Made by a program: the position numbers and the translations under genes. A stretch of 64,000 bases of DNA from Chloroflexota bacterium (GTDB taxonomy: Bacteria; Chloroflexota; Anaerolineae; B4-G1; SLSP01): NCBI GenBank assembly GCA_029555965.1, contig JAKQHY010000015.1:1-64000 (forward strand). Direction: 5' to 3'. Under the pieces are notes generated by a model, which was given only the letters and a program-made list of their open reading frames with translations, was not told the DNA's origin and did not search any database. Numbering within the stretch: the first letter of the stretch is position 1; each line of letters begins with the position of its first letter. This document shows positions 3,578-10,261 of the stretch, piece by piece.

Positions 3578-3605
3578 TTGCCCAAACCCATATCCGTGCT
3601 ATACT
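3578..3605 (+). promoter_or_regulatory. Putative promoter of leuS leader
   Basis: TTGCCC-N16-TATACT. Confidence 0.45.
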
Positions 3606-3633
3606 AAAGGCAGTTCAGGTCATGAGGAATAAG

Positions 3634-3714
3634 ATGGCAACCGTTCAAAGTCAGGCCCTCCTTAACGTTCAACTCCTTGGCAACCAGGAGTTATACCCGT
3701 TTGGGAGCAATTGA
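3634..3714 (+). CDS. Candidate leuS leader peptide MATVQSQALLNVQLLGNQELYPFGSN
   Basis: 26-codon ORF with GAGG ribosome-binding site, two Leu-Leu pairs plus one Leu, immediately 5' of terminator/antiterminator. Confidence 0.55.
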   Translation: MATVQSQALLNVQLLGNQELYPFGSN

Positions 3715-3780
3715 CCCCGAAACATTGAGCAGACAACAGCAGATGACGCGCCTCCCAAACGGAGGCGCGTTTTCTTTTTG
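3697..3780 (+). promoter_or_regulatory. Candidate transcription attenuator (antiterminator/terminator switch)
   Basis: CCGTTTGGGAG (3697-3707) is exactly complementary to CTCCCAAACGG (3752-3762), which overlaps terminator stem ACGCGCCTCC/GGAGGCGCGT (3746-3770) followed by TTTCTTTTT. Confidence 0.6.
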
Positions 3781-3800
3781 GTCAACGGATAGAACGGATT

Positions 3801-3980
3801 AAGAACCTATCCGAAAATTATAGCGGCGTTGTGCCGCTGCGCCGGGTCTTGCGGCTAAAGCCGCTTTCAGGAAGGTATTTTTTCGTGGGCGGGCGTAGCC
3901 CGCCCACGAAAAAAATACCCTTCAAACCGCGCCTTTAGGCGCAAATCGTGGGCCAAAACGAATTTTCGGATAGATTCTAA
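3801..3980 (+). mobile_element. 180-bp MITE-like multi-hairpin element, copy 1
   Basis: Ends AAGAACCTATCCGAAAATT / AATTTTCGGATAGATTCTAA; internal hairpins; inverted copy at 10082-10261. Confidence 0.75.
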
Positions 3981-4030
3981 ACGGAAGGAGTATAGAATGT
4001 GTACAGTCACAATGATACCGGAGGTGATTT

Positions 4031-4114
4031 CCCGGACGCCCCAGTTCCCGGCGTCCGGGGCGCTCGTGTTGTGAAATTTTCAGGTTATTGTTTTCTATTC
4101 ACAAAATTTCACAA
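4031..4114 (+). promoter_or_regulatory. Two stem-loops in the leuS 5' region
   Basis: CCCGGACGCC(4031-4040)/GGCGTCCGGG(4050-4059); TTGTGAAATTTT(4069-4080)/AAAATTTCACAA(4103-4114), both perfect. Confidence 0.5.
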
Positions 4115-4134
4115 CATAATAAGGAGATCGAGCC

Positions 4135-6723
4135 ATGAACACCGAATACAATCCCTGGGAAATGGAGGCCCGTTGGCGCGCGCGCTGGGCCGAAGAACAA
4201 GTGTATCGCACCCCTGCCCTGTCGGGTGAGGGTGAAACTGCCCGCCGGACGTTCTATTGCCTGGACTTCTTCCCCTACCCTTCCGGCGCGGGATTGAGCG
4301 TGGGCCACGGGCGCAACTACGTCCCCAGCGACGTAATCGCCCGCTATCACCGGATGCGCGGCGACGCCGTCCTGCACCCGATGGGCTGGGACGCCTTCGG
4401 GCTGCCCGCCGAAAATGAGGCCATCAAAACCGGCGCGCATCCCGCCGACAGTACCCGCCGCTACGCAGTTAACTACAAACGACAACTGGACTTACTGGGC
4501 TGTTCCTACGATTGGGAGCGCGAGATCAACTCTGCCGACCACGCCTACTACCGATGGAACCAGCACTTCTTCCTGATGCTATACCGGCGTGGCCTGGCCT
4601 ACCGTGCCGAAGCCCCTGTCAACTGGTGCGAAAGCTGCCAGACGGTGCTGGCTGCTGAAGAAATCGAGCAAGGCAACTGCTGGCGCTGCCACAATCCCGT
4701 CGCTCAACGCACCCGCAAGCAGTGGTACATCCGCGTGACCGCCTACACCGACGAACTGCACGCCGACCTGGATCGCCTGGACTGGCCGGAACACATCCTG
4801 GCGATGCAGCGGCATTGGATTGGACGCAGTGAAGGCGTGGAAATTGAGCTGAAAGTAATGAGTAATGAGAAAGAGGTAATGAGTAATGAGATGTCCTCAC
4901 TCATTGCTCATTACTCATTACCCATTACTTCCCCCGCCATCACCGTCTTCACCACCCGCCCCGACACCTGGTTCGGCGTGACCTTCGTGGCACTGTCGCC
5001 GGAGCACCCGCTGGCCGAGGCCATTGCCGCGCCGGAACAGCGCGACGCCGTGCGCGCCTACATCGCCGCTGCCAGACTGCGCACTTCGGATGATCGCCAC
5101 ACCCGCGAGCCGGACGGCGTCTTCACCGGCGCTTACGCGGCGATCCCCGGCGGCGCTCCCGTCCCCATCTACGTGGCCGACTACGTGCTGGGTGAATACG
5201 GCGCGGGCGCGGTGATGGGTGTTCCGGCCCACGATACCCGCGACTACGCCTTCGCGCAGAAGTACGCGCTGCCCATCAAGACGGTCATCGTCCCGCCCGG
5301 CGACGACTCTGCGCCCCTGCCCACCACCGATCCCGGCGTCCTGATCCACTCCGGGCCATTCGACGGCATGAACTCCGAAGATGCCATTGCCGCCATCACC
5401 GCGTGGATGGAGGCGGAAGGCTTCGGGCGACGCGCCACCCACTTCCGCCTGCGCGACTGGCTGATCTCGCGGCAGCGCTACTGGGGGACGCCCATCCCCA
5501 TCATCCACTGCCCGGCGTGCGGCGAAGTCCCCGCGCCCGAGGCCGATCTGCCCGTAATGCTGCCCCCGCTGCCCGACTTCCGCCCGCGCGGCGATGGGCG
5601 CGCGCCGCTGGCGAACGCGCCGGACTTCGTCGCCACGGTCTGTCCCCGCTGCGGCAGCCCTGCCGAGCGCGAGACGGACACGATGACCGGCTTCGTCTGC
5701 TCGTCGTGGTACTACATGCGCTTCACCGACCCGCACAATCCCACGCAGTCCTTCGACCCGGCGCTGGCCGCGCGCTGGCTGCCGGTGGACGTCTACGTAG
5801 GCGGCGCGGAGCACGCCGTCGGCCACCTGCTGTACTCCCGCTTCTGGACGAAGACGCTGGCCGACGCCGGACTGGTGGATTTCCGCGAGCCGTTCCCCGT
5901 GCTGCGCAGCCAGGGCGTGCTGCACGCCCGCGATCCGCGCACCGGCAAGGTGGAGCGCATGTCCAAGTCGAAGGGCAACGTCGTCACGCCGGAGAGCGTC
6001 ATCGAGCGGTACGGCGCGGATGTGACGCGGCTACATCTGCTGTTTATAGGGCCGTTCGAGGCCAACGTGATCTGGGAAACGGAGGAGGACGGCGTCACGC
6101 CGCAGCACATTGAGGGCGTGCGGCGCTTCCTACAGCGGGTGTGGCGGATAGCGAATAGCGAATGGCGAATGGCGAATGGCGAATCGCAAATAGCAAATGG
6201 CGAATGGCGAATGGCGAATGGCGAATGGGAGAGGCTCGAAAATGTTGCGCTATGCCGCGCTATGCATCGCACGATACGCGAGGTGACGGAACAGACTGAA
6301 GCGCTGCATTTCAACAAGGCGATCAGCGCGCTGATGACGTTCAGCGGGGAAGTGGAAAGCTATCAACGGCAATTTGGGATGACGGCAGAAGGCTTCGCTG
6401 CCTGCGCGACGCTAGTGAAGCTGCTGGCGCCCTTCGCGCCCTTCATCGCGGAGGAAATCTGGCGCGGCTGGGGCAACGCCGAGAGCGTCCACATCCAGCC
6501 GTGGCCGGCGTGGGATCCGGCGCTGGCGCAAGTCGAAGAGGTGGAGATGGCCGTGCAGGTCAACGGCAAGGTGCGCGACCGCATCTGCATCGCCGCCGGA
6601 ACAGCCGAGGAGGTCATCCGGCAAAGTGCGCTGGCTGCGCCCGGCGTCCGGCGCGCGCTGGAAGGGCGCACCGTGCGCCACATCGTCATCGTGCCGGGGC
6701 GCGTCGTCAACATCGTCGCCTGA
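4135..6723 (+). CDS. leuS: Leucyl-tRNA synthetase with two in-frame repeat insertions
   Basis: YPSGAGLSVGHGRNYVPSDVIARYHRMRG, RMSKSKGNVVTPESVIERYGAD, C-terminal VQVNGKVRDRI. Confidence 0.97.
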   Translation: MNTEYNPWEMEARWRARWAEEQVYRTPALSGEGETARRTFYCLDFFPYPSGAGLSVGHGRNYVPSDVIARYHRMRGDAVLHPMGWDAFGLPAENEAIKTGAHPADSTRRYAVNYKRQLDLLGCSYDWEREINSADHAYYRWNQHFFLMLYRRGLAYRAEAPVNWCESCQTVLAAEEIEQGNCWRCHNPVAQRTRKQWYIRVTAYTDELHADLDRLDWPEHILAMQRHWIGRSEGVEIELKVMSNEKEVMSNEMSSLIAHYSLPITSPAITVFTTRPDTWFGVTFVALSPEHPLAEAIAAPEQRDAVRAYIAAARLRTSDDRHTREPDGVFTGAYAAIPGGAPVPIYVADYVLGEYGAGAVMGVPAHDTRDYAFAQKYALPIKTVIVPPGDDSAPLPTTDPGVLIHSGPFDGMNSEDAIAAITAWMEAEGFGRRATHFRLRDWLISRQRYWGTPIPIIHCPACGEVPAPEADLPVMLPPLPDFRPRGDGRAPLANAPDFVATVCPRCGSPAERETDTMTGFVCSSWYYMRFTDPHNPTQSFDPALAARWLPVDVYVGGAEHAVGHLLYSRFWTKTLADAGLVDFREPFPVLRSQGVLHARDPRTGKVERMSKSKGNVVTPESVIERYGADVTRLHLLFIGPFEANVIWETEEDGVTPQHIEGVRRFLQRVWRIANSEWRMANGESQIANGEWRMANGEWERLENVALCRAMHRTIREVTEQTEALHFNKAISALMTFSGEVESYQRQFGMTAEGFAACATLVKLLAPFAPFIAEEIWRGWGNAESVHIQPWPAWDPALAQVEEVEMAVQVNGKVRDRICIAAGTAEEVIRQSALAAPGVRRALEGRTVRHIVIVPGRVVNIVA
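4855..4928. repeat. TAATGAG heptamer hairpin inside leuS
   Basis: gtaatgagtaatgagaaagaggtaatgagtaatgag...ctcattgctcattactcattacccattac. Confidence 0.85.
6147..6229. repeat. GCGAATG heptamer array inside leuS
   Basis: gcgaatagcgaatggcgaatggcgaatggcgaatcgcaaatagcaaatggcgaatgg...; encodes IANSEWRMANGESQIANGEWRMANGEW. Confidence 0.9.
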
Positions 6724-9996: not shown

Positions 9997-10081
9997 AGAT
10001 ACCTCCGTGGGTTGAGTTTGGCCTAAGTTTAGTGCAGATCGGGGTTTGGGCAAGTGCAAAGTCCGTCGCCGCAAAACACCT

Positions 10082-10261
10082 TTAGAATCTATCCGAAAAT
10101 TCGTTTTGGCCCGCGATTTGCGCCTAAAGGCGCGGTTTGAAGGGTATTTTTTCGTTGGCGGGCTGCGCCCGCCAACGAAAAAATACCTTCCTGAAAGCGG
10201 CTTTAGCCGCAAGGCCTGACGTAGTGGTACAACATCGCCATAATTTTCGGATAGGTTCTTA
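10082..10261 (-). mobile_element. 180-bp MITE-like multi-hairpin element, copy 2
   Basis: Reverse complement closely matches 3801-3980. Confidence 0.75.

Follow-up and report, generated by a model that had tools for sequence, protein, structure and literature searches.

Our data indicated that leuS2, a leucyl-tRNA synthetase (LeuRS) paralog of a Chloroflexota bacterium, is in all probability controlled by a ribosome-mediated (leader-peptide) transcription attenuator located upstream of the gene. The window (the 64,000-nt stretch analyzed, positions 1 to 64,000 of contig JAKQHY010000015.1) carries a leuS gene, named leuS2 in this report, that encodes a full-length bacterial LeuRS of 862 aa matching TIGR00396. 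Comparison with related loci supported four parts of the proposed attenuator, namely the upstream open reading frame (uORF), the terminator, the alternative pairing, and the match between the leader codons and the gene that follows. The original prediction, made from the window alone, was right in placing an attenuator before leuS, but it overlooked four points: leuS2 is one of two leuS paralogs, its leader is part of a class-wide family whose members also lie before ilvB, ilvD, and leuA, another, possibly translational, leucine-leader element follows, and there is a precedent in Streptomyces.

Leader elements and proposed switch

Every predicted element was present where it had been placed (Table 1): a 26-codon ORF ending in TGA and encoding MATVQSQALLNVQLLGNQELYPFGSN, five leucine codons (two CTC CTT pairs and a TTA at 3691-3693), an exact inverted repeat in which the 11 nt of CCGTTTGGGAG are the perfect complement of CTCCCAAACGG, and an intrinsic terminator with an 11-pair stem followed by a T-rich tract. 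Pairing of the pre-terminator region with the 5' arm of the terminator (-21.4 kcal/mol) was stronger than in dinucleotide shuffles (-11.5 +/- 2.6; z = -3.8, p = 0.004), and the whole leader was also more stable than shuffles (fold z = -4.1). Pairing energies in the window were -11.1, -21.6, and -23.2 kcal/mol for 1:2, 2:3, and 3:4, respectively. That the antiterminator and terminator exclude each other, as had been claimed, was borne out by their shared strand 3, by the duplex and covariation tests, and by folding.

Table 1. Features of the leuS2 upstream region and their positions in the window
Feature	Position	Strand	Basis
Sigma-70-like promoter TTGCCC-16-TATACT, TG before the -10 box	3578-3605	+	Promoter scan; ends 28 nt before ATG
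uORF1, 26-codon leader peptide and stop (ATG 3634, TGA 3712-3714)	3634-3714	+	28 relatives have a Leu-rich uORF there
Strand 1, CTCCTTAACG, shares positions with the first Leu pair; possible partner of strand 2 (-11.1 kcal/mol)	3656-3667	+	Fold, window alone
Proposed control codons, two CTC-CTT Leu pairs (3658-3663, 3673-3678)	3658-3678	+	Sequence
Pause-type hairpin AACTCCTTGG/CCAGGAGTT, holds second Leu pair	3671-3692	+	Folding; CTCCTT...AGGAG kept in relatives
Strand 2, antiterminator 5' arm	3697-3707	+	Inverted repeat, duplex tests, arm covariation, fold
Intrinsic terminator, stem 3745-3771, T tract 3770-3779	3745-3779	+	Terminator call, fold
Strand 3, antiterminator 3' arm, in terminator 5' arm and loop	3752-3762	+	Same tests as strand 2
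MITE-like repeat between attenuator and leuS2	3800-3981		Repeat copies in genome
uORF2, 25 codons, MCTVTMIPEVISRTPQFPASGALVL, SD AAGGAG, proposed second leader	3997-4074	+	EVxxRxP in L011, L012, L032; ASGxL in L011, L032
GC-rich hairpin inside uORF2	4031-4059	+	Fold
Helix of uORF2 end (4062-4080) with 4103-4116 (and 4129-4133), flanks leuS2 SD (4121-4126)	4062-4133	+	Fold
leuS2, leucyl-tRNA synthetase paralog	4135-6723	+	TIGR00396, LeuRS tree

In the proposed mechanism, RNA polymerase would start near 3612, and a ribosome would translate uORF1. With ample Leu-tRNA, this ribosome would reach the stop codon and cover strand 2, so that the terminator forms and transcription ends before leuS2. With Leu-tRNA in short supply, stalling on the CTC-CTT pairs would leave strand 2 free to capture strand 3 before the 3' arm of the terminator is made, and leuS2 would be transcribed. 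In the absence of translation, strand 1 may tie up strand 2, resulting in termination by default; this anti-antiterminator pairing was examined in the window alone. We infer the transcription start, the stalling, and the direction of the response.

Folds of partially masked RNA were consistent with this scheme. With the RNA masked to 3690, as by a ribosome at the second Leu pair, 2:3 could form with polymerase at 3762, and with masking to 3726 (a ribosome at the stop codon), the terminator alone remained. This fold, together with the position of strand 2, which in most leaders coincides with the stop codon or immediately precedes it, upheld the proposal that the stop codon is placed for a terminating ribosome to mask strand 2. 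Counting against the model, the terminator was favored in the full-length fold even when the 5' part was masked, and antitermination would therefore have to be kinetic, as in classical systems.

The terminator and leuS2 are separated in the window by approximately 355-363 nt, within which lie the MITE-like repeat and a second element. This raises the possibility that the attenuator is ancestral but has decayed here, having been uncoupled from leuS2 by the repeat and a downstream promoter, and the terminator-to-leuS distance in the window (363 nt) is indeed the largest among the members of families f1, f3, and f5. We regard such decay as improbable because all attenuator elements are intact (the exact complement of 11 nt among them), a search of 3780-4134 gave no promoter-like site on the plus strand, and several members of family f37 have gaps that are similar or longer.

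Conservation among leuS2 relatives

The upstream DNA of leuS2-clade relatives was examined in genomes of the order (48), the class (396), a second order (56), and the phylum (400), most of which are fragmented MAGs. Whereas the original prediction had named a lack of the uORF or helices in related genomes as evidence against it, the opposite was found: a Leu-rich uORF, a terminator, and an alternative pairing occurred at 29 leuS2-clade loci (the window and 28 others) in seven Chloroflexota families. The uORFs comprise 20-37 codons, with the stop located 21-51 nt before the intrinsic terminator, and most contain two to three consecutive Leu codons. Apart from the Leu runs, the leader peptides share little (e.g., MTDQSFSNGLQELDVLLLGRSYTRLGRR, MVAIHVQCQVLAAQLLLAGKEPLMRG, and MKQLLADHKSLVLSGLLLPGTDNGCWRSCWSNPPRSA), and the retention of the ORF at 29 loci despite this variation argues for uORF1 as a short, presumably translated leader ORF. 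A DNA-level search of 60 relatives was nearly empty, the sole match outside the bacterium's own genome being a 22-nt, terminator-like stretch; conservation thus lies at the level of arrangement and not of plain sequence. No such leader was found upstream of leuS in two relatives at 47-49% identity (L015, L016) or upstream of the paralogous leuS of the same genome, and the near relative L154 had no uORF1 within 800 nt upstream. L151, L153, and L160 were cut by contig ends or incomplete.

Strand 2 is positioned around the uORF stop, mostly from -27 to +3, and its partner is the 5' arm and loop of the terminator. In 28 of the 29 leaders, the antiterminator duplex surpassed the mean of its shuffles (mean z -2.0), with no excess complementarity over shuffles in L010, L161, and L156. 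Paired changes in the two arms were evident in the group nearest the window (CCGTTTGGG/CCCAAACGG, CCGCTTGGG/CCCAAGCGG, CGTCTGGG/CCCAGACG, and CGTGGG/CCCACG). When strand 2 was combined with its own or with swapped terminators, its own was favored overall (p ~5e-5) and inside two sequence groups (p = 0.003 and 0.001), these values being optimistic since the leaders are related. Registration of the arms and terminators was in part manual; in group A, MAFFT misregistered the 3' arm of the antiterminator because the length of the C run varies, and the arms were accordingly hand-registered. RNAalifold returned just two hairpins from the group A alignment because the switching helix and the terminator are mutually exclusive.

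Promoter-like sites were also located no more than 75 nt upstream of most uORFs of the relatives, scoring 9.0 on average compared with 7.6 in shuffles. At four loci (L044, L050, L156, and L159), just 7-15 nt separate the -10 box from the leader ATG. As a clear Shine-Dalgarno (SD) sequence is also lacking at these loci, their leader ORFs may be translated from a nearly leaderless mRNA.

A class-wide family of predicted attenuators

A covariance model (R1) built from 11 leaders matched 114 of 298 genomes of the class (Anaerolineae) at a cut-off of E <= 0.01. Among 90 matches whose downstream genes were examined, 78 preceded ilvB (38), ilvD (26), leuS (10, including a dubious one at L275), or leuA (4); none of these genes was assigned to the remaining 12. 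Leader peptides contain mainly Leu before leuS and leuA, and Ile, Val, and Leu before ilvB and ilvD: the share of Ile and Val among Ile, Leu, and Val was 25% in leaders of leu genes versus 56% in those of ilv genes (Mann-Whitney p = 1.4e-8). This codon-to-gene match is the strongest evidence that the leaders sense the charged tRNA named by their codons. The predicted frame of hairpin, antiterminator, and terminator is common to the members, and the sensing peptide differs.

The same match bears on whether the leader might respond to any slowing or stalling of translation, such as that caused by an antibiotic, rather than to leucyl-tRNA. Ribosomes stalled for any cause would free strand 2, and duplicated synthetases are sometimes resistance genes, as with trpRS1 of Streptomyces. 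A general sensor is nevertheless quite unlikely, given that the codon content follows the pathway, with Leu alone characteristic of leuS and leuA. Another reading is that the uORF and terminator constitute a short transcript of their own, perhaps an sRNA or a micropeptide gene, whose position upstream of leuS2 is incidental. The 355 nt between terminator and leuS2 in the window, including a mobile repeat, and the promoter-like site just 5' of uORF1 would suit such a transcript. We consider it very unlikely, as the uORF-terminator unit precedes leuS2 at 28 other loci, with the terminator only 25-48 nt from leuS in L161, L013, and L010; moreover, the peptide is not conserved beyond its Leu runs, and the frame recurs before ilvB, ilvD, and leuA, where the amino acids of the peptide fit the gene. 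Although T-boxes precede other Chloroflexota leuS genes (L145, L053, L058, and L060), control of the window leuS by a T-box or ligand-binding riboswitch is scarcely credible, since no family of Rfam 15, known amino-acid leaders included, matched the window or related leaders at gathering score, the T-box model (RF00230) gave no match in the window even at a permissive threshold, no T-box bulge sequence is present, and T-boxes are not characterized by a conserved, translated ORF rich in Leu.

Leader-peptide attenuation of leuS2 thus remains our preferred reading, and its place in a wider family has several implications. By comparative genomics, leader-peptide attenuation emerges as a widespread means of control for branched-chain amino-acid genes in Anaerolineae. 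A single RNA frame whose sensing peptide is exchanged among leuS, leuA, ilvB, and ilvD would amount to a natural codon-swap experiment. The family, which no Rfam entry matches, could also be used for gene annotation.

Single R1 matches were located before an MFS transporter gene and rplI, as well as before thrA-like (L279), serA-like (L267), and cystathionine/methionine-lyase-like (L258) genes, these names being our reading of the sequence. The short ORF at L279 contains Thr, and at these last three loci the frame may have been put to use for additional amino acids. In genus g11, in which leuS2 was not found, the other leuS type (leuS1) is preceded by a Leu leader and terminator (L020, L021, L025, and L038; e.g., MKSLFALLALTLLALTNRYWRAASAH), apparently independent of the leuS2 leader. 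The T-box leaders before leuS at L053, L056, L057, L058, and L060 enclose a tRNA-Ala(GGC) gene between the specifier part and the antiterminator, and in L053, L058, and L060 the T-box model match encloses the tRNA match. A tRNA-Ala(CGC) gene lies just upstream of the tRNA-Ala(GGC)/T-box leaders, an arrangement seen in three families (e.g., L058, 4009-4371, minus strand).

A proposed second leader element

Between the repeat and leuS2 lies uORF2. Among members of the window's family, this ORF is equipped with a good SD and an EVxxRxP motif, with ASGxL after it in three of four, and the end of uORF2 pairs next to the leuS SD or across it (L032, L012, and the window). In the window, the SD lies in a helix bulge, and this part is weaker than in several relatives. 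In family f37, uORF2 carries LLLL or LVL (MKTDFVITQNWSLLLLFSPAAASALAE, MIQNGNLLLLSRPAAARPLAV, and MIRFTKQLLLLYCPTAGPADAG), and its Leu codons complement the leuS SD region (CAGTTACTCCT/AGGAGTAACTG, CCTCTTATT/AATAAGAGG, and CTCGTCTT/AAGACGAG). Predicted SD sequestration was clear in L043, L150-L153, L155, L158, L032, and L012. Its mean z over the whole intergenic region was -0.6, a diluted value, sequestration being seen just in lineages with a recognizable uORF2, and this ORF could not fit in members with only 25-80 nt between terminator and leuS. Pairing of uORF2 with its own rather than swapped SD regions was favored at p = 5e-5 across 10 lineages, with pairing windows hand-chosen after the complements had been seen.

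These patterns suggest a possibility that we stop just short of favoring, in which leuS2 is doubly leucine-gated: uORF1 would act first, as a transcription attenuator, and uORF2 next, as a translational one, with its own Leu codons forming the strand that covers the SD. A shortage of Leu-tRNA would then raise both transcript number and translation through two leader peptides on each mRNA. To our knowledge, no such tandem is known for any amino-acid gene, and none was found in the literature searched; if confirmed, it would represent a new way to stack leader peptides. In erm-type translational attenuators, stalling of the leader ribosome frees a sequestered SD. The same release is proposed for uORF2, which differs in relying on Leu codons and not on drug-dependent stalling, and in lying behind a transcription attenuator.

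Relation to known attenuators

The ilv and leu operons of E. coli and Salmonella are controlled by leader-peptide attenuators, in which, as proposed here, branched-chain codons in a short leader choose between antiterminator and terminator. The window leader differs in controlling a tRNA synthetase, and class-wide, one RNA frame serves leuS, leuA, ilvB, and ilvD. The auxiliary tryptophanyl-tRNA synthetase gene of Streptomyces coelicolor, trpRS1, is under ribosome-mediated attenuation and is likewise a second synthetase gene behind a leader-peptide attenuator, although for tryptophan. Classical candidate attenuators have been predicted before leuS itself in Streptomyces avermitilis and S. coelicolor (Seliverstov et al. 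2005, PMC1262725), with a Leu-codon leader ORF, antiterminator, and terminator as in the window. They belong to another phylum and to two genomes, compared with 29 loci here, and the leuS portion of that account mentions no second leader element. Since both mechanism and gene are thus precedented, the contribution of our analysis lies in the phylum, in how widely the family extends, and in a possible tandem.

A Leu-rich attenuator has also been described for ilvD of S. aureus (PMC5794164), in which the proposed antiterminator pairs with the U tail of the terminator, unlike here. In bacilli, a His leader peptide precedes duplicated hisS and hisZ (Naville and Gautheret 2010, PMC2965389); this is again a leader peptide and not a T-box for a synthetase paralog for which other taxa use T-boxes, but in Firmicutes and for histidine. 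According to the same survey, which also mentions the ermC leader, leader-peptide systems were then known just from Proteobacteria and Actinobacteria, to which it added Firmicutes. No earlier report of a leuS attenuator in Chloroflexota was found in the literature searched, and Lopatovskaya et al. 2010 may extend the taxon range of that year.

Paralogs and genome context

The genome, which was assembled from a metagenome, encodes two leuS paralogs. The second LeuRS (L176, on contig C142) is longer and approximately 51% identical to that of the window over the matched part. In a tree of 70 LeuRS sequences, from which the C142 copy was left out, a fully supported split parted the window LeuRS from the long type of its relatives. 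The MITE-like repeat upstream of leuS2 recurs in the window at 10081-10261; it spans approximately 182 bp, has 21-nt terminal inverted repeats, and is present in about 40 genome copies with 83-99% identity.

In all parts that were compared, the window's contig, C175 (95,294 bp), is exactly palindromic (2 x 47,647 bp, with position x the complement of 95295-x), and window positions 31295-64000 are accordingly a mirror image of themselves. The palindrome is very likely a fold-back assembly artifact, so that inverted repeats and duplicate gene calls on this contig are spurious and copy numbers are to be halved. An exact second genomic copy of the leader is produced by this palindrome and was rejected as biology. 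The LeuRS encoded at 4135-6723 contains in-frame simple-repeat insertions (VMSNEKEVMSNEMSS... and RMANGESQIANGEWRMANGEW), the encoded repeat of which matches many phyla, and a protein search of genome contigs returned mostly short matches bearing a translated repeat.
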